NCBI RefSeq assembly: GCF_018397995.1 | Contig: NZ_BBQH01000017.1 | Location: 73,948 to 137,947, forward strand | Direction of reading: 5' to 3' | From: Rhizomonospora bruguierae | Lineage (GTDB): Bacteria; Actinomycetota; Actinomycetes; Mycobacteriales; Micromonosporaceae | Length of the DNA: 64,000 nucleotides | In this document: positions 2,170-64,000 of the stretch, in pieces | Layout of the letters: every line of letters begins with the position of its first letter | Numbering within the stretch: position 1 is the first letter of the stretch | Program-made: the position numbers and the translations under genes | The notes under the pieces: model-generated | Told to the model about the DNA's origin: nothing | The model's database searches: none | The model's input: the letters and a program-made list of their open reading frames with translations, nothing else

Positions 2170-5100
2170 TCAGGGGGCGAGCGTCCGCTCGATCTCGGCG
2201 ACGATCCGGCTCAACGCCGGTTCCGTGAACAGCGTGTAGTGGTCGCCGGGCAGGCCGGTGCTCTGGAACCGGCCCGTGCACACCGCCCGCCACTGCTCCC
2301 GCGCGGTGGCGTGGGGCGTGGCCGCCAGCAGCGTGACCGGTCCGCCGTACGGGCCCGGCGGGCGATACGACCGCAACGCCAGCGCGCAGGCCCGGAAGAC
2401 GGCGTAGCGGCCGGTCAGCTCGTCGTCGCTCAGCTCCAGCTCGACCTCGAGCGATGCCAGCGTCGTCCTGATGTCGGCCAGTCCGGCGGCCGGATCGTCC
2501 AGCACCGCGCGCACGGCCGGGCCGTCCCGGCCGGCCAGCCTGGCCACGTCGTGCACGAACCGCCGCCGCACCGTCGGCTCGTCCAGCGGGGCGGCGTCCT
2601 CGTCGTAGAAGGCGTCCAGCAGCAGCACCGGCGGCCGTTCCCCGAGATCCCGCTCCAGCTGCCGGGCGACCTCGAAGGCGAGGACGCCCCCGTAGGACCA
2701 GCCGGCCAGGCAGGACGACTCCGGTAGGCCGGTCGCCTTCAGCGCCCGCGCGATCCTGGTGGCCGCCGCCGTCATCGCGTCTCGGGGAGGCACGTCGGCA
2801 TCCCGTGGATCGGCGGCGAACCCGGCCACCCCGATGCCCTCGGGCAGCGCCCTGACCAGCGGGACGTAGCAGAACAGCTCGCCGCCGGACGGGTGCACCA
2901 GGAACACGCGCGCCGGGTCGGGTGCGCGCATCAGCACCGGTGCCCGACCGCCATCCGGCGCGACGGCCGAACGGCGCTCCACCGCGGCGTCGGACAGGTT
3001 CGCCAGCGCGTCGAGCAGGTCGTCGTCGCGCCCTCGCCCGGCGCGGACGGTGTCGATGATGGTGGCCAGGTGCGCGGCGGTGGGGGAGACGAAGAAGTCG
3101 GCGAGCGCGATCTCCACCTCGAACCGGCGGCTGATCGCCGACATCAGCTGGGCGGCCTGCAGACTGTTGCCGCCGGCCTGGAAGAAGTCGTCGTGCACGC
3201 CGAGCCGGTCGGTGCGCAGCAGCGGGCTGAGCACCTCGCCCAGCAGCACCCGTTCGGTCGCGGTGCGCGGCTGGTCGCCCGACCCGTCGCCGGCCGGGTT
3301 CGGCCGCGGCGCGGGCAGCCTGCGCCAGTCGACCTTGCCGCTACTGGTGAGCGGAAGCTCGTCGAGGACGACGAAGTACGACGGGACCATGTACGAGGGC
3401 AGGACCGTGCCGAGGTGCTCGCGCACCGCCGGCACCTGCTGCTTGAGCACACCCGTCAGGTAGCCGACGAGGTGCTTGGCGCCGGCGTCGTCGGTCCACG
3501 GCCGCACGCTGACCGGGCCGATCCCGGCGACACCGGCCAACGCCGACTCCACCTCGCCCAGTTCGATCCGCAGGCCACGGATCTTGACCTGCTGGTCGAT
3601 CCGGCCGAGGAAGACCAGCCGCCCGTCCGGCAGCCGCTTCACCAGGTCCCCGGTCCGGTACAACCGGCCGCCCGGCGCGGTGCCCAACGGGTCGGTGACG
3701 AACTTCTCCGCGGTCAGCTCGGCCCGGTCGAGGTAGCCCCGGGCCAGCCCGGCGCCGCCGATTACCAGTTCGCCCGGCACCCCGATCGGCACCTGGCGCA
3801 GGTCGCGGTCCAGCACGTGCGCGACGTGGTTGGCCATGGGCCGGCCGATCGGGGGCGAGGCGTCCCAGGTGCCCGGGCACTCCTCGACGATCATCGTCAC
3901 CGTGCACTCGGTCGGCCCGTAGCCGTTGAACAGCCGCCGGCCCGGATTCCACCGGTTGACCAGTTCGCCGCTGAACGCCTCGCCGCCGACGAACGCGATC
4001 CGCAGATCGGTGAACTTCTCCGGTGCCAGCAACGGCATCACGGTCGGCGGCAGGTCGATGACGGTGACGCCGGCCCGTTCCATCAGCGACTGGAGCCGGT
4101 CGATGGACAGCCGTTCGTCGTCGGTCGCCAGGCACAGGCGTGCCCCGGTCAGCAACGCGGAAAACGTCTCGAACACCGAGACGTCGAAGGTCATCGACGC
4201 GAACCCGAGCACCCGGTCGGCCGGGGTCAGGTCGAACAGGTCCCGGGTGGAATCGATGAAGTTGACCACGCCGCGATGTTCGAGCAGCACCCCCTTCGGC
4301 CTGCCGGTGCTGCCGGAGGTGTAGATGACGTAGGCGACGTCGCCGGGTTTCGGGGCGAGCGGGGGGTTCTGGGCGGGCATCGCCGCCAGGTCCGCGCGGA
4401 CCTCGTCCAGCGCCACGACGGGCGCGGCGACGGCGCTCACGGCCCGGGCGACATCGACGTGCGTGATCACCGCGGCCACCCCCGCGTCGGCGGCGATGTC
4501 CGCCACCCGACCGGGGGGATGGGTCGGGTCGAGCGGCACGTAGGCCGCGCCGGTCTTGAGCACCGCGAGCACCGCCGCCGGCAGGTCCACATTCCGGCGC
4601 AGGCAAAGGCCGATCGTCGTACCCGGCACGGCGCCGCGCTCGCTCAGCAGGGCCGCGAGCCGGTTCGCGCGGGCGTTGAGATCGGCGTAGCTGGTCGCGA
4701 CGCCCTCGACGACCACCGCCACGCCGTCCGGCGTCTCCGCGACGCGCGCCTCGAACTGTTCCACGACGGTGGTTTCGCGCACCGGCCGCACCGGGCCGCT
4801 ACTGACCGCCGTGAGGAACTCCCTCTCCGCCGGGCTCAGCATGTCCGCTGTGGACAGCGAGGCGTCCGGGGTGGCGGTCAGGGTGCGCAGCAGTTCGTCG
4901 TAGTGCCGGGCGAACCTGGCGATGCTATCGCCGTCGAACAGGTCGGCGTTGAACTCGATGCGCAGGAGCGCGTCGGCGCCGGGAACCGTTGGCTCCACCA
5001 GGTTCCAGCTCATGTCGAACCGGGAGGTGGCGACCCGGACAGCCTCCCGCGAGGTCACGAGGCCGGGCAGACCGGCGGCGGTGGGATCCGCCTTCCCCGC

Positions 5101-25644: not shown

Positions 25645-26927
25645 CCCCGCCGCAGCTGGCGCCCGCCTTCTTCATCGCCGTCGTCGTGATCCTGGTCTTC
25701 TGCAAGGCCGTCGCCTGGCTGCTGGGCAAGGCGGGGCAGCCGGCCGTGGTCAGCGAGATGCTCGCCGGGGTCCTGCTCGGCCCATCGCTGCTGGGGCTGC
25801 TCCTCCCCGGCGTGCAGCACGCGCTATTCCCGGCACCGCTGCTGCCGCTGCTGTACGTCGTGGGCCAGGTCGGCCTGGTGCTGTACATGTTCCAGGCCGG
25901 GTACGCGTTCACCGGGCACCGCATCGACCGGATCGCGGGAACCGCCGGTGCGGTGTCGCTGGCCGGGGTCAGCGCGCCGCTCGTGCTCGGCGCGCTGCTG
26001 GTGTGGGCCGCCGACGGCCTCGCCCCGGTGCGCAAGGCGGGCACGTCGGTGGGCGTCACCGCCGCCTTCGTCGGCGTGGCGCTGGCCATCACCGCGTTCC
26101 CGATGCTCGCCCGGATCATCACCGAGCGCGGCCTGCAGCGCACCCGGCACGGCTCGCTCTCGCTGGCCAGTGGCGCCCTGGACGACATGGCCGCCTGGAT
26201 CATGCTCGCCGTCGTGCTGGCCTTCGCCTCCGGCCGGCCCGGCCCGGTGATCATCACCGGTGGCGGTGCCGTCCTCTTCGGACTGGTGCTGTGGATCGGC
26301 GGGCGGCGCGCCGCCGGGGCGCTCATGGGCAGCGGCCGGTCAGGCGATCAGGGCCGGCTGCTGGGCACGGTCGTGCTGCTGTTCCTCGTCGCCTGGTACA
26401 CCGACCGGATCGGCCTGTACGCGGTGTTCGGCGCCTTCGCGGTCGGCGTGGTCATGCCGCACACCGCGCGCACCGACCGGGTCGTCGAGACGCTCACCCC
26501 GATCGCGGCCACCGTGTTCCTGCCGCTGTTCTTCACGTACTCGGGTCTGCGCACCGAGTTCGGCCTGCTGGGCGACCCGGCGGTGCTGCTGTTCGCGATC
26601 GCGTGCGTGGTGCTGGCCATCGCCGGCAAGTTCGGCGCCTGCTGGGCCGCGGCCCGGGCACGCGGCGAGTCCAACGCCGTGGCGCTGCGCGTCGGCGCGC
26701 TGATGAACGCCCGCGGGCTGATGCAGCTCATCGCGCTCAACGTGGGCCTGGAGGCCGGCATCGTCGGCCCGGCGCTGTTCACCATCCTGGTGCTCGTCGC
26801 GCTGGTCACCACCGTCATGACCACGCCGCTGCTGTACTGGCTCGACCGTCGCGACGCGCGGGGCGCCGAGCCGATTTCCGCAACCCGCCGAGAAAGAGAC
26901 ATCCATCACTCGACTGTGGCTCCCTGA
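25641..26927 (+). CDS. CPA2-type cation/proton antiporter
   Basis: 428 residues, about 12 hydrophobic segments. Hallmarks: LAGVLLGPSLLG in helix 2, VGQVGLVLYMFQAGYAF, AFVGVALAITAFPMLARIITERGL and the ion-binding LASGALDDMAAWIMLA, then LGTVVLLFLVAW and LMNARGLMQLIALNVG. These are features of KefB/NhaS3-like antiporters. The GTG at 25641 overlaps the P450 stop. Antiporters of this family are recurrent in specialised-metabolite operons, where they may export a charged product or provide resistance; that role here is inferred. Confidence 0.9.
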   Translation: MTPPQLAPAFFIAVVVILVFCKAVAWLLGKAGQPAVVSEMLAGVLLGPSLLGLLLPGVQHALFPAPLLPLLYVVGQVGLVLYMFQAGYAFTGHRIDRIAGTAGAVSLAGVSAPLVLGALLVWAADGLAPVRKAGTSVGVTAAFVGVALAITAFPMLARIITERGLQRTRHGSLSLASGALDDMAAWIMLAVVLAFASGRPGPVIITGGGAVLFGLVLWIGGRRAAGALMGSGRSGDQGRLLGTVVLLFLVAWYTDRIGLYAVFGAFAVGVVMPHTARTDRVVETLTPIAATVFLPLFFTYSGLRTEFGLLGDPAVLLFAIACVVLAIAGKFGACWAAARARGESNAVALRVGALMNARGLMQLIALNVGLEAGIVGPALFTILVLVALVTTVMTTPLLYWLDRRDARGAEPISATRRERDIHHSTVAP

Positions 26928-45324: not shown

Positions 45325-47035
45325 ATGCAACGACGGAGGGTGGCCGCGGCGGCCACGGTATTGGCAGTCGCGGTCCCGTGTCTGGTCGCGATGGGGACGT
45401 CGGCCGCGGCGGCGCAGGGCCTTCCGACCTGCGCGGATCTGGCGGTCGACCCGGCCCGGGGTCTGGTGGGGAACCCCGCGGTGGTGAGCGTCGCCTCGTC
45501 GGAGCAGGAGACGTCGGGCATGGCGTACTGCCAGGTGGACGTCAACTGGTCCACCCCGGGCGTGTCCGGGCCCGCCGCCGGCTACGCCGACGGTGAGTCA
45601 CAGTCCATCACCATGCGATTCGCGCTGCCGGCCCGGGGATGACTGGACCGGACGAATGATCATGACCGCCGGCGGCGGATCCCAGGGCAGCGTCCCGGAC
45701 CTCCGGAGCATGATCACGATGGGGGCGATCGGCGGGGGCACCGACTCCGGCCACGGCCCGGGCTCGGACTTCGGTGTCATCCAGGAGACGAACACCCTGG
45801 ACACCGGGAAGATCACGGACTGGATCGGCCGGTCCAACGGCCTCGCGGTACGGCTGGCCAAGGAGATCGCCAGGACCTACTACGGCAGTCCGGTCAGCTA
45901 CACCTACTGGCAGGGCTTCTCCGGCGGTGGACACATGGGCTGGACCCAGGTGACCCAGTACCCGGAGGAGTACGACGGCGCGCTGATCGGGGCGCCGGCC
46001 GCCGACTGGCAGCAGTTCCGGCTCGCCGACTCCTGGGATGAGATCGTCCGCAAGAAGGTCGCCCAGCAGACCGATCCGATCACGCAGGGGCAGATGACCG
46101 CGGCCACCGCGGCCGCCGTCGCGGCCTGCGACGGCGACGACGGGGTGCGCGACGGCCTCCTCGGCGACCCCCGTTCCTGCACCTGGAGCGCCACCAACAA
46201 CATCTGCGGCGCCGCCGGCGCTCCCGCGGCACCGAACTGCGTGAACAGGATCCAGGCCAACGGCATCGACACGATGTGGGACGGCCCGCGCAACAGCCAC
46301 GGGCTGCGGATCTGGTACCCGTACGACCGCGGCATCAACCTCGGCACGAGCACCACCACGCAGGCCAGCACCGTCCAGGTCATGCGGTGGAACCGCGCGG
46401 ACCTGACCTTCGACGGGAACAACCTGTACCAGGACCGGGAGTCGATCGCCCTCGCGGCCGCGGCCGGGGTGGACGTGACGAACGCCGTCACCTACGAACA
46501 GGAGGCGGTACTGACCGCGGCCACGACGGCCCGGCTCACCTCCGGCTGGCAGCGCGACATCACCAGGGCCCGCGACCTCGGCCTGAAAATCATGGTCTAC
46601 CACGGCACCGCGGACTCGGCGATCCAGTACCGCAACGATGTCGACCGCTACCGGCAGGCCGCCCGGTACTACGGCACGGGCCAGGCGAACTTCGCGGCCA
46701 TCCAGGACTGGTACCGCCTGTTCCTCGTGCCCGGTATGGGCCACTCCGCCCAGCCGTTCCTGCCCGAGTTGATGGCCTGGGTCGAGGACGGCGTAGCCCC
46801 CGACCGGATCGCCCGCACGAGCGGCTTCCCGGTCGTCTGTTCCTTCCCGCAGAAGGCCATCTACCGCGGAAGCGGCAGCACCAGCGACGCGAACAACTAC
46901 ACCTGTGGCGGCAACCTGGACGCCGACCCGGTCGCGCTCTGCCAGATGCCCAGCACCAAGTTCGGCCTCGAGGACAAGGCGGCGCTCAACACCAGTGAGA
47001 CCGGTATCCCGCCGGGCCAGTGCAAGAAGTCCTAG
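45325..47035 (+). pseudogene. Secreted tannase/feruloyl-esterase-family hydrolase, frameshifted
   Basis: Two overlapping frames make one protein of about 569 residues. The first (ATG 45325, GAGGAGGAG upstream) encodes a signal peptide (MQRRRVAAAATVLAVAVPCL, cleavage near AAAAQG) and the N-terminal part ending ITMRFALPARG at a TGA at 45640. The second resumes at once with DDWTGRMIMTAGGGSQG and runs to 47035. Removing one G from the GGGG at 45635-45638 restores the frame. The rest is intact: nucleophile YWQGFSGGGHMG, acid HGTADSAI, base PGMGHSAQ, and paired cysteines. Tannase-family enzymes cleave gallate or ferulate esters outside the cell. The shift may be a recent mutation or a sequencing error in the G run. 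Confidence 0.85.
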
Positions 47036-47083: not shown

Positions 47084-47288
47084 CTACTGCGACCACTATG
47101 GACTGTGGTGCCCCCGGGCGGGATGGCCAGGCGCACCGCCGGGAGCGGGCAGCGCCGGCGCCATGAGAGTCCATGAAGGACGGTTCGCGACGACCGCGGA
47201 GCGCCGGCGCGGGAACGCTCCCATTGACATCGGGCAACTTATCGATCACGCTGCCTATCAAGCGTCACCTCACGGGAGGAACTCAGCC

Positions 47289-47486
47289 ATGGTCCAGACC
47301 CTGAATCGGTTAGCCGACCGCGTCCTCGCACGTCTCGTCCCCACCGCGCAGGCGGACGCCGCCTGCGCCTACGTATGGGAAAGCTGTGGCTGCACGCTTG
47401 GCTTGCGCTACCGCCGCAAGTGCATGAACGGCTGCCCGCAAGTTCCCAACCACTGCTACCCCTGCGAGGCATGGGGCACCTGCTGA
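47289..47486 (+). CDS. Cysteine-rich secreted peptide precursor, 65 residues
   Basis: The ATG at 47289 has GGGAGGA nine bases upstream. Residues 1-24 form a leader (MVQTLNRLADRVLARLVP, then TAQADA) that is amphipathic rather than strongly hydrophobic but ends in A-D-A before A25-C26, a signal-peptidase-I type site. The 41-residue mature part has eight cysteines at 26, 33, 35, 45, 49, 56, 59 and 65, enough for four disulfides, plus two tryptophans (30 and 62) and a basic LRYRRK patch. The two downstream genes encode a membrane-anchored redoxin and a signal peptidase I, which fit disulfide formation and leader removal. A perfect TTGACA lies at 47224 but its -10 partner is poor. I do not recognise the family; it recalls the cysteine-dense MauA/MauD relation only in logic. 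Possible roles: antimicrobial peptide, enzyme subunit or surface protein. Confidence 0.8.
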   Translation: MVQTLNRLADRVLARLVPTAQADAACAYVWESCGCTLGLRYRRKCMNGCPQVPNHCYPCEAWGTC

Positions 47487-47683
47487 ATCGTGTCAGCGTC
47501 CACCGCGCCGCGGCCGGTCGCCGACACCGGTGACCGCCGTGGCCGGTGTTCCGGCCGCCCCGTTCGCCAAGGCGGTCGGCCGTCAGCCGCGGTCGCGGTC
47601 GTTCGCCCGGCTCCGCCGGTTCGGAACGCCCGCGGTACCAGGAAGGAGCCACCGTTGCCGGTGCAGGAACGAACGGGCGAGCG
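47487..47683. other. Spacer between peptide and redoxin genes
   Basis: 197 bp rich in GC dyads (for example GGTC at 47518 with GACC at 47531) that could attenuate transcription after the peptide gene. Frames through it look non-coding. Confidence 0.4.
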
Positions 47684-48199
47684 ATGACCGACGCACTGTT
47701 CGTCGCGGTGCTGTTCCTCGCCGCGCTCACGCTGTTCAATCTCATCGTCGTGCTCGGCGTGGTGCGCCGCCTACGCTCCTACGAGACGCGCCTGGGCGCC
47801 GTGGCGGAGCCGCCATTGGTGTCCACTATGGCGGCGGGTGAACAGGTGGGCGACTTCACCGCCTCCACCGTGGATGACCGAGTGGTGAGCCGCGCGTCCC
47901 TTGGCGGCCCGACGCTCGTCGGCTTCTTCTCGCCCAACTGCCCGGCCTGCCATGAGCGGCTCGGCGACTTCCGCGCCGCCGCGGACGGCCACCCCGGCGA
48001 CGTGCTGGCGGTCGTGGTCCGCGACGGTGGCGACGTCGCCCCGGTGCTCTCCGCGCTCGCCGGGACGGACGTGGTCATCGAGGAGCCGGAAGGGCCGCTG
48101 GCGCGGGCGTTCGGCGTCCGCGGCTTTCCGGCGTTCATCGCCGTCCGGGAGGAAGGCGTGGTCGAGTCGGTCGGCTTCCAGGTGCCTGTGCCGGCGTGA
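47684..48199 (+). CDS. Membrane-anchored thioredoxin-like redoxin (TlpA/MauD-like)
   Basis: 171 residues from the ATG at 47684; the frame extends upstream without coding character. One N-terminal membrane helix (ALFVAVLFLAALTLFNLIVVL) precedes a thioredoxin fold with the active site FFSPNCPACHERLGDF (CPAC) and the cis-proline loop VRGFPAFIAV. MauD proteins, which help oxidise the cysteine-rich MauA subunit, have a similar anchor and CPxC motif. Likely faces outside the membrane and oxidises or isomerises the disulfides of the peptide encoded upstream. No MauE-type electron partner is present. Overlaps the signal peptidase by 4 bp. Confidence 0.9.
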   Translation: MTDALFVAVLFLAALTLFNLIVVLGVVRRLRSYETRLGAVAEPPLVSTMAAGEQVGDFTASTVDDRVVSRASLGGPTLVGFFSPNCPACHERLGDFRAAADGHPGDVLAVVVRDGGDVAPVLSALAGTDVVIEEPEGPLARAFGVRGFPAFIAVREEGVVESVGFQVPVPA

Positions 48200-48795
48200 C
48201 CGGTGCTACCGGCCGCGCGGGCGCCGCGCTCGACCTCGCCTCACGGGCGTGGTCGGTGCCGCTGGCGGGCTACGCCGCGCTGGCGCTGCTTGCGGTCGCC
48301 CCGCTCGTGGCGGTGCTGTTGGTGCGGCGGCGATGGATGGTGGTCCGGGTGCGGGGCGGCAGCATGGCACCGGCCCTCCATGACGGTGACGTGGTCCTGG
48401 CGCGGCGGTGGACGGGCCGATCTAAGCGCCACGGCGAGGTGTCGTCGCCGGGCCGCGGCGATGTCGTGGTGTTGCACCGCCCCAGCGGTGCGGCGATACC
48501 CGCCGGAGCGGTCGCGGCGCCGCCGCTCAGGATGACGGCACCGCCGCCGAGCGCGACGGCTTCGGGCCGGTGGCTCATCAAGCGGGTGGTGGCGGTGGCA
48601 GGAGATCTTTTGCCGCCCGGCATACCGCCCGGTCGGGCACCGGCCGGTGTCGTCCCGCCCGGCATGGTCGTGGTCCTGGGGGACAGCGCGGGCTTCGACT
48701 CCCGGCTGTTCGGACCGGTCCCGCTCGACTCGATCCAAGCGACGGTCGTCAGGAGCCTGAGCCCGGGGTCGGTTCCCGCGTCGCGGCCCACCTGA
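48196..48795 (+). CDS. S26-family signal peptidase I
   Basis: 199 residues. Membrane helix LAGYAALALLAVAPLVAVLL near the N-terminus. Box B: MVVRVRGGSMAPALHDGD with the catalytic Ser. Box D: WLIKRVVAVAGD with the catalytic Lys. Box E: VVVLGDSAGFDSRLFGPV. A proline/alanine-rich insertion separates the Ser and Lys boxes. It overlaps the redoxin gene (GTGA), so it is a dedicated enzyme of this operon, fitting cleavage of the peptide leader after A-D-A, rather than the housekeeping peptidase. Confidence 0.92.
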   Translation: MTGATGRAGAALDLASRAWSVPLAGYAALALLAVAPLVAVLLVRRRWMVVRVRGGSMAPALHDGDVVLARRWTGRSKRHGEVSSPGRGDVVVLHRPSGAAIPAGAVAAPPLRMTAPPPSATASGRWLIKRVVAVAGDLLPPGIPPGRAPAGVVPPGMVVVLGDSAGFDSRLFGPVPLDSIQATVVRSLSPGSVPASRPT

Positions 48796-48902: not shown

Positions 48903-50321
48903 TCAGGCCCCACGGAGGCGACGCAACAGCAGGGCACGCTGCTGCGGCGACAGCTGGCGTAGCCGGCGCGGCAGCTCGCCACCCGCGTTGGCCTCGGTGG
49001 GGCCTCCGCTTGCGGCGCCCGCACCGGCCGATCCGTCCACAAGCGACGCTATGAGCCGCGTGGCTCGAAGGGGCGCCGCGTGCTCCGGTTCGCCGGTGTA
49101 GCGCGTGGCGCGGTCCCGATAGCCCCGGTCGGCGAGGGCACCGTCGAGCTGCGCGGCGACCGCCGGGGCGGACCACTCGTGTTCGGCCGTCCAGCGGGCG
49201 AGACCGTGCGCCGCCAGTCGCTCGGCGTTGTCCGGCCGGTCGGCCCCGTACGCCATGATGACCTGCGGGGTCGCGCTGCGCAGCGCGCGTACGGCGGTGC
49301 CGATTCCGCCGTGGTGCAGCACCGCCGCCACCCGCGGAAATATCGCGGGAAAGGGCAGGCGGGGGTACCAGTGCAGCCCGGCGGGCAGCCGGTCGGGCAG
49401 GACGGCGCGGTCGGGCGTGACGACGAGACCGGCGCGGCCGGTACGGGCGACCGCGTCCAGTGCGACCGGATAGAACCGCTCGTGCAGCAGTTGCCCGGTG
49501 CCCCCGGTGACCAGCACCGGGGGTTGGTCGCCGGCGAGCAGCGCGGCAACCTCCGCCGGCACCTCCGGCTCGCTTCCGGTGGGCTCGGTTCCGGCCGGTT
49601 CGGTTGCGGTGGGCTCGGTTGCGCCGGGTTCGGTTCCGGCCGGCTTGGCTCCGGTGGGCTCGGTTCCGGTGGGTTCGGCGAACCCGGCCAGCTCGTCGCC
49701 GGTGACGAACCCGGCCAGCTCGGCCCGGGTCGGGGTGCCCGCCTCCTCGAACCACCGGGGCCACAACCCGATCGTGTGGGCCGGGCGCAGCCACCCGCTC
49801 CAGTCGCCGACCGGCGCGAGCCCGACCTCCGCGCGTACCTCGTCGATGCCGCCGGCGAGTCCGCGCGCCGCGTGCGCGGCGGCGACCGGCGCGACGACCA
49901 GTTGGACCGGTGCCACCGCCACCCAGGCCGCGGGCGCCCCGAGCAGGTCGGCGGCGATCCGTACGGACAGGGCCGAGGTGTGCCGGCCAACCAGGACGGT
50001 CCGATCCGGACGGTGCCGCTCGGCGAGCAGGTCGACCTCGCGGCGCATCTGCGCGAACAGGCCGGACCGCTGGTAGAACCGCCGCAGGTCGGCCGGGTGG
50101 CGTACCGCCAGCAGCTCCGCCGAGCCGGCCAGCATGTCCACATAGGACTCCCCGGTGTCGACGGCGGCGAAGTCAAGGCCCGCGCGGCGGGCGGTCCGTT
50201 CGTACGGCGCGTGCGTGCACAGCGTGACCTCGTGCCCCTGCCGCGCGAGGGCGCTGCCGATGCGGGCGAACGGTAACACGTCGCCGGCCGTGCCGTGAGT
50301 GACCATGAGAACTGTTGCCAT
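48903..50321 (-). CDS. GT1-type glycosyltransferase with low-complexity insert and NRPS-like tail
   Basis: 472 residues from the ATG at 50321 (AAGGAG four bases upstream). N-terminal VLMVTHGTAGDVLPFARIGSA is the MGT/UGT glycine loop; C-terminal donor half has VLVTGGTGQLL, GLHWYPRLPFPAIFPRVAAV and HHGGIGTAVRALRSATPQVI with FGADRP-like AYGADRPDNAERL. This is the macrolide/glycopeptide type of glycosyltransferase. Between the two halves lie about eight TEPTG-like pentads. The last 25 residues (GGELPRRLRQLSPQQRALLL and RRLRGA) resemble the segment found at the start of NRPS condensation modules. Divergent from the giant NRPS gene, so it probably glycosylates that peptide. Confidence 0.9.
   Translation of the reverse strand: MATVLMVTHGTAGDVLPFARIGSALARQGHEVTLCTHAPYERTARRAGLDFAAVDTGESYVDMLAGSAELLAVRHPADLRRFYQRSGLFAQMRREVDLLAERHRPDRTVLVGRHTSALSVRIAADLLGAPAAWVAVAPVQLVVAPVAAAHAARGLAGGIDEVRAEVGLAPVGDWSGWLRPAHTIGLWPRWFEEAGTPTRAELAGFVTGDELAGFAEPTGTEPTGAKPAGTEPGATEPTATEPAGTEPTGSEPEVPAEVAALLAGDQPPVLVTGGTGQLLHERFYPVALDAVARTGRAGLVVTPDRAVLPDRLPAGLHWYPRLPFPAIFPRVAAVLHHGGIGTAVRALRSATPQVIMAYGADRPDNAERLAAHGLARWTAEHEWSAPAVAAQLDGALADRGYRDRATRYTGEPEHAAPLRATRLIASLVDGSAGAGAASGGPTEANAGGELPRRLRQLSPQQRALLLRRLRGA
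49562..49680 (-). repeat. 15-bp coding tandem repeat in the glycosyltransferase
   Basis: Pentapeptide units of type T-E-P-[TA]-[GT] (TEPTG, TEPTG, AKPAG, TEPGA, TEPTA, TEPAG, TEPTG, SEPEV) encoded by 15-bp DNA repeats. It lies in the linker between the acceptor and donor domains, so length changes are likely tolerated. Confidence 0.85.
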
Positions 50322-50350
50322 GGCGCTCCTTCCGGGCACCCTGCCAGACA

Positions 50351-50372
50351 AATACGGGCATAGACCGGTATT
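50351..50372. promoter_or_regulatory. Imperfect dyad in the divergent glycosyltransferase/NRPS promoter
   Basis: AATACGGG (50351) faces CCGGTATT (50365-50372); 7 of 8 arm positions pair. Located 30 bp upstream of the glycosyltransferase start and 25 bp from the NRPS promoter, suitable as an operator for either. Confidence 0.35.
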
Positions 50373-50396
50373 GGGTCGGGGCGGGTGGCCATCTGC

Positions 50397-50425
50397 TTGA
50401 CGATCACTATTTCTGTTTGTAACGT
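50397..50425 (+). promoter_or_regulatory. Sigma70-type promoter of the giant NRPS gene
   Basis: TTGACG (50397-50402), 17-bp spacer, TAACGT (50420-50425). The spacer is AT-rich compared with its surroundings. Expected start near 50432 gives a leader of about 98 nt before the ATG at 50530. Confidence 0.6.
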
Positions 50426-50529
50426 ACGCCGCATGGAAGCGCTCCCATGGGGTGCGACCTGCTCTTTTGGACGCGGCACCAGGCAATTCGTGTGGTGGCC
50501 GACGGTGACGCTACGGGGGTACGTTCACC

Positions 50530-64000
<13,471 letters not shown>

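Follow-up and report, generated by a model that had tools for sequence, protein, structure and literature searches.

MauE and MauD mature MauA of methylamine dehydrogenase. This maturation is summarized in the relevant passages of the decRiPPter paper, which also report three Streptomyces candidate families of ribosomally synthesized and posttranslationally modified peptides (RiPPs) that contain MauE, one of them also MauD, and precursors with at least eight cysteines (PMC7794033). Here, we describe a locus in a 64,000-nucleotide stretch of the Rhizomonospora bruguierae contig NZ_BBQH01000017.1 (the whole stretch is called the window). The locus comprises genes for a cysteine-rich peptide, a MauD-like redoxin, and an S26-type signal peptidase. 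It is probably a reduced locus of an actinobacterial system for the maturation and export of disulfide peptides, with the exporter supplied in trans. Judged from its predicted proteins, the system would be classed as a disulfide-peptide secretion system of the RiPP type that combines its parts in an unusual way. In the open-licence literature, the decRiPPter paper was the only directly relevant work found, and no account was found there of the leader, the association with S26, the occurrence outside Streptomyces, a shared exporter, or the product.

The window locus contains the following features.

47274..47279, + strand: putative ribosome-binding site GGGAGG, plausible as judged by eye
47289-47486, + strand: peptide open reading frame (ORF), 65 residues, eight Cys, two Trp
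47289..47360, + strand: leader, residues 1-24, MVQTLNRLADRVLARLVPTAQADA, ending in A-D-A (residues 22-24) and preceding position 47361
47361..47483, + strand: predicted mature core, 41 residues, 8 Cys, after the presumed cleavage site
47484..47486, + strand: stop codon of the peptide gene
47521..47643, + strand: MauE remnant of ~40 codons, aligned to residues 3-44, with the first membrane segment degraded
47684..48199, + strand: MauD-like redoxin with an N-terminal hydrophobic membrane anchor followed by FSPNCPAC (CPAC motif)
48196..48795, + strand: ORF of the S26 signal-peptidase type, containing the motifs GGSMAP (Ser) and LIKR (Lys)
48208..48378, + strand: N-terminal stub of an ATP-binding cassette (ABC) exporter, aligned to exporter residues 8-64 and fused in frame to the S26 ORF

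These ORFs confirm what a preliminary description of the window had claimed: a 65-residue peptide with eight cysteines, two tryptophans, and a leader ending in A-D-A, beside a CPAC redoxin on a membrane anchor and an S26 peptidase. That description had recognized no named family for the peptide, and scans of Pfam and NCBIfam likewise matched none, even at an expectation value (E) of 1; no MauA family matched the peptide in either database. The redoxin is near the AhpC-TSA and Redoxin families, scoring below the gathering threshold for both (PF00578, 23.6 versus 26; PF08534, 20.4 versus 26.6), and has a CxxC active site (CPAC). Its score is below the cutoff of the MauD equivalog TIGR02661 (17.8 versus 188.6 bits). 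The S26 protein scored above the curated cutoffs of PF10502 (63.5 versus 22.9 bits) and TIGR02227 (59.9 versus 47) and contains the Ser and Lys catalytic motifs of type I signal peptidases; the start of its ORF overlaps the redoxin stop codon as GTGA.

The longest uncharged run in the peptide leader is 7 residues, and its best 10-residue Kyte-Doolittle mean is 1.09; across family leaders, the median of this simple hydrophobicity measure, which is not a signal-peptide predictor, was 1.21 and the maximum was 2.73. The leader has no clear hydrophobic core of the kind found in signal peptides of the general secretory (Sec) pathway, which makes a role as a Sec signal unlikely. A promoter scan found none, and the repeats near the locus were unremarkable.

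Sequence comparison places the window peptide in a large actinobacterial family with a conserved leader and a variable core. With the peptide as the query, 23 of the 200 genomes searched in the same taxonomic family gave matches at an E of 0.01, some of them by chance. A 26-sequence profile gave matches at 1e-5 in at least 40 of the 397 genomes of the order. Matches at 1e-4 were present in 38 of 295 genomes of a further genus of the class, and phylum-wide, with the best 15 candidates per genome scored, matches at 1e-5 occurred in at least 2 of 396 genomes, one of them that of the window. The genus of the window was represented by a single genome in the set. Named relatives occur in Dactylosporangium aurantiacum, Dactylosporangium vinaceum, Microbispora corallina, and two Virgisporangium. 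Further own-genome matches on contigs C14 (L003 and L049) and C13 (L004) were chance-like ORFs and were dropped before counting.

The family leader follows the pattern ..L.DR.L..LVP...A.A and is better conserved than the core. D10, A22, and A24 were invariant in all 26 aligned peptides, which were rows handpicked as peptide-like among the search matches; among 65 aligned peptides, A24 (leader position -1) was invariant, and Asp10 and A22 (-3) were each present in 90% or more. By manual reading, 117 of 125 peptides had A-x-A where it is expected, and 7 of the remaining 8 had V-x-A there. This count was preferred to an automatic one (121/124), which also took an early A-K-A in one group, and to a re-anchored one (100/124), which often anchored on the wrong acidic residue. 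The positional Asp/Glu counts derive from the 85 of 89 cluster representatives that fitted a pattern requiring Asp or Glu.

Core length, spacing, and sequence vary across the family, and the number of cysteines was even in 115 of 125 peptides. The same was true of 80 of the 89 clusters formed at 55% identity (binomial P of about 1e-15 against one half); one three-Cys peptide (score, 17) was dropped before this cluster count and is included in the 115/125. In a later set of peptides that lay outside profile building, all 17 clusters had an even number. Complete pairing into disulfides predicts an even number, and evenness was not selected by the search. Relatives across the Actinomycetes keep both the leader and the cysteines.

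In relatives, the peptide usually lies beside four partners. We annotated 77 loci (the window, 16 regions left from 17 fetched after one chance match was dropped, and 60 profile-match regions) with profiles built from the first loci and counted partners within 5 kb of the best peptide. A redoxin was present at 66 loci, an S26 peptidase at 64, an ABC exporter at 63, and MauE at 54. The peptide and all four partners were found together at 54/77 loci, 8/77 were without MauE only, and 10/77 had no partner. Counted by genus, a redoxin occurred in 16 of 20, S26 in 17/20, the exporter in 16/20, and MauE in 14/20. The sample is uneven: one genus supplied 26 of the 77 loci, and genus g5 supplied 8 of the 10 partnerless ones. 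L033 duplicates L160, and L159 duplicates L034/L161. The exporter counts use matches of >400 bits, since matches of 162 to 244 bits were other transporters; the count without this cutoff was 65/77 versus 63. Twenty control regions from the same genomes contained no S26, exporter, or MauE and no full set (0/20); they contained one weak MauD match (29 bits) and one genuine-looking peptide, in genome G004. All five parts were also present in Microbispora corallina (L162) and in 18 of 20 regions of the further genus, which were chosen mostly among the best of 51 matches listed; the two exceptions (L191 and L203) are located at the ends of contigs.

The partner proteins keep their expected motifs. 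C-x-x-C is present in 80/80 family redoxins over 100 residues, C-x-C-F in 58/59 MauE proteins, and the Ser and Lys motifs in 68/71 S26 family members. In the D. aurantiacum locus (L160), MauE scored 58.3 bits against PF07291 (cutoff, 27), and the exporter contains an ABC ATPase in Pfam and is closest by sequence to ABCB-type exporters; no peptidase domain was reported for it in the Pfam scan or the PDB sequence matches. The preliminary description had proposed that a disulfide-rich peptide is served by an oxidant and a leader peptidase of its own. The redoxin and S26 counts agree with this proposal: both partners are missing at only 10/77 loci, so that its own refuting condition, the absence of both from most genomes with homologues, did not apply. 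Its analogy with MauD acting on MauA is strengthened by MauE as the usual further partner.

Alignment with the D. aurantiacum locus shows that the window locus is a secondarily reduced five-part module from which MauE and the exporter were lost by deletion. The gene order at L160 is peptide-MauE-MauD-ABC-S26, and its peptide is 71% identical to that of the window. In blastn, the two loci aligned in colinear blocks: window positions 47211-47618 to 187-597, 47692-48285 to 1083-1682, 48193-48274 to 1690-1769 (74%; E, 4e-9), and 48320-48749 to 3557-3944. Most of MauE and nearly the whole exporter are missing from the window. The compact trio is thus a deletion leftover and not, as had been claimed, the minimum of the pathway; relatives also encode the exporter and MauE. 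The three ORFs are indeed neighbors, as the preliminary description stated, and yet they are not one intact unit: the 197-nucleotide gap between peptide and redoxin contains the MauE remnant, and the N terminus of the S26 ORF is exporter derived. In tblastn without composition correction, the MauE remnant matched with 52% identity (E, 1.8e-6; next match, 0.003) and the exporter stub with 50% identity (E, 3.4e-5; next match, 0.004); the tail of the latter match overlaps S26 sequence. The counterpart locus in D. vinaceum contains peptide and redoxin only. The ratio of nonsynonymous to synonymous substitution rates (dN/dS) between the window and D. aurantiacum was below 1 for each gene (about 0.27 for the peptide, 0.24 for the redoxin, and 0.26 for the catalytic part of S26), and that of the redoxin against D. 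vinaceum was 0.31.

Since the window locus has lost its exporter, the exporter would have to come from elsewhere. The window genome contains four family peptides, four MauD-like redoxins, and two other family exporters. One of these exporters, on contig C16, belongs to a complete module; the other, on C53, lies with a redoxin, a peptide, and S26. Per-genome peptide matches, counted at an E of 0.01 with at most the best 150 candidates scored, numbered 4 in G000, 21 in G004, 60 in G007, 36 in G025, 25 in G074, and 2 in G114, and those in G004, G007, and G025 were mostly scattered. In G004, the single redoxin sits in a MauE-MauD-ABC-S26 locus (L140) where no peptide was found; the L140 exporter is the only one close to the family, and three weaker matches (208 to 277 bits) are of uncertain relation. 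In G007, several peptides stand in tandem, two redoxins lie away from the exporter, and the one exporter adjoins S26; 50 of the 60 peptide matches scored 1e-5 or better, 12 contained a stop within the stretch that matched, and 21 of the peptides were read as ORFs. G025 has two close exporters and one weaker one. Machinery without a local peptide, as at L140, and peptides without local machinery together support action in trans. The simplest reading would be a shared machine that recognizes the leader. We put the chances at about even that, in each cell, dozens of hypervariable disulfide peptides encoded at scattered sites depend on one exporter family together with MauE, a MauD-like redoxin, and S26, and that the window locus has shed its own exporter and now depends on the shared one.

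Genome G074, of 14 Mb and listed at 10% contamination, contained 17 MauD-like redoxins along with its 25 peptide matches and possibly holds many parallel modules.

We infer a pathway with the following order and sides of the steps. The conserved amphipathic leader would act as an address for a family ABC exporter, provided in trans from C16 or C53, which would recognize it and transport the peptide out of the cell in unfolded form. On the outer face, the S26 peptidase, itself anchored in the membrane, would then cut after A-x-A. The cysteines would be paired, here into four disulfides, by the anchored CxxC redoxin, together with its membrane partner MauE at loci that encode it. Several points weigh against this pathway. 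Most inspected peptide loci of G004, G007, and G025 are without a local redoxin, and nearly all are without an exporter. The window locus itself, with MauE degraded and the exporter lost, could be decaying: the peptide dN/dS against D. vinaceum was 0.53, and all the dN/dS values also cover the period that preceded the deletions, in which part of the divergence arose. The profile that found the peptides already holds leader and cysteine columns, so that conservation is partly built in, and the parity test treats the 55%-identity clusters as independent. Finally, PF00664, the exporter membrane domain, was not reported, and the class of the exporter rests on its ATPase and PDB sequence matches.

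Several observations bear on the product, whose role we can only guess to be antagonism or signaling towards other cells. BTAD/SARP-type regulators are linked with antibiotic clusters. Such regulators, as identified by Pfam on one representative, were present in 42/80 fetched regions and in 0/20 controls. An FtsX-type permease was found at 6/100 loci (L039, L048, L078, L080, L082, and L088, with the L088 protein identified in Pfam) and perhaps serves self-protection. Among the 22 loci with locally isolated peptides, no neighbor was common to more than 3 loci and no immunity candidate was found. In nine orthologues (L060, L062, L067, L068, L069, L074, L075, L076, and L089), the leader and cysteines are kept and a loop between two cysteines is strongly changed. 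The ratio of the proportions of nonsynonymous and synonymous differences (pN/pS) was 0.08 for their leader, 0.36 and 0.53 for the core halves, and 0.77 for this loop, which was chosen after the sequences had been seen.

The best AlphaFold2 model of the peptide has strands at residues 27-36, 39-47, and 60-64, with predicted local distance difference test (pLDDT) values of 81 to 88 for the block from residue 31; mean pLDDT across the five models ranged from 41 to 70. Foldseek gave no match to the peptide model at an E of 0.001. The best structural match was a phytocystatin (Z, 3.4), and laterosporulins matched with Z of 2.6 to 2.7 over 43 residues; these matches are leads only. In the PDB sequence search, the peptide gave two noise matches and profile A3 gave none.

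These observations make an antagonistic role of the peptides, as bacteriocins or otherwise, possible at somewhat short of an even chance, with an arms race as the cause of their diversity; the preliminary description had suggested a bacteriocin-like product. The BTAD/SARP-type regulators, the higher pN/pS of the core than of the leader, the tandem paralogues, the FtsX-type permeases, and the weak fold resemblance to laterosporulins all point this way. However, no pN/pS ratio exceeds 1, the isolated-peptide loci offered no immunity candidate, and a Z under 3 is no evidence of a common fold, unrelated folds scoring higher. The presence of many paralogues in a genome, with no obvious gene for immunity, would also suit a signal, coat, or surface component that serves the producing organism, for example in development or in the cell wall, and the named hosts are filamentous actinomycetes. 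We consider such a role doubtful, since the cores differ between close relatives and presence is patchy (at least 40/397 genomes of the order at an E of 1e-5).

Two further explanations concern whether a secreted product is made at all. The two deletions, the degraded MauE, and the fused exporter stub could mark the window locus as a dying remnant that makes nothing and whose peptide, redoxin, and S26 genes are heading for loss, and the related D. vinaceum locus shows peptide and redoxin alone. This explanation is unlikely, because the three frames are intact, the catalytic motifs are kept, the fusion preserves the reading frame of S26, each of the three genes has a dN/dS of about 0.25 against D. 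aurantiacum, and some relatives commonly have peptides with no exporter nearby. A short, cysteine-rich product might instead be a cytosolic metallothionein-like metal-binding protein with unrelated neighbors. The even number of cysteines, the A-x-A site, and the frequent company of an oxidoreductase pair, an exporter, and a signal peptidase make this highly improbable, and the Pfam and NCBIfam scans of the peptide returned no family of any kind.

Other features of the window are as follows.

26561-26650, + strand: tRNA-Ala, anticodon CGC
45593-47032, + strand: tannase/feruloyl esterase family protein, immediately preceding the peptide gene
48906-50486, - strand: glycosyltransferase with an EryCIII-like C-terminal domain, adjoining the peptide locus
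50530-55998 onwards: nonribosomal peptide synthetase (NRPS) with condensation, adenylation, and carrier domains, starting 1.7 kb downstream of the peptide locus

The NRPS has no evident link to the peptide locus, and the EryCIII-like glycosyltransferase possibly belongs to the NRPS cluster.

If the proposed system is real, a large reserve of disulfide-stabilized peptides that Pfam and NCBIfam miss awaits exploration in actinomycetes, a main source of antibiotics. The leader and the even number of cysteines would then be a simple search key, and a portable machine might make such peptides. The window locus would be a clear natural case of a biosynthetic locus that sheds its exporter and keeps its product gene, under a shared export logic comparable to that of prochlorosins or venom peptide families.

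As in the maturation of MauA, MauE and a MauD-like redoxin would serve a small cysteine-rich substrate. Unlike methylamine dehydrogenase maturation, an exporter and S26 are added, and the redoxin scores 17.8 bits versus the 188.6 required of MauD. The decRiPPter families also have MauE and MauD homologues beside a precursor with at least eight cysteines, a RiPP modification being proposed for them, and may belong to the same system; the passages that present them name no leader motif, S26 partner, other families, or exporter sharing (PMC7794033). The TMcin pathway involves one disulfide, a transmembrane precursor, an S2P-type protease, and a DsbA-type enzyme, and is similar in its leader cleavage at the membrane side and its dedicated disulfide catalyst; it is a different pathway (PMC13252029). 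Laterosporulin-type bacteriocins are likewise small peptides, and their fold match to the predicted model is weak; unlike the window peptide, laterosporulin is called leaderless in its PDB title, and there was no PDB sequence match. Fulvocin C may be a further analogue. Prochlorosins are made by one machine that acts on numerous precursors, encoded at scattered sites and alike in their leader but not in their cores. The system proposed here would likewise combine a single machine with scattered precursors that share a leader and vary in their cores, with disulfides and S26 cleavage in place of lanthionine formation.
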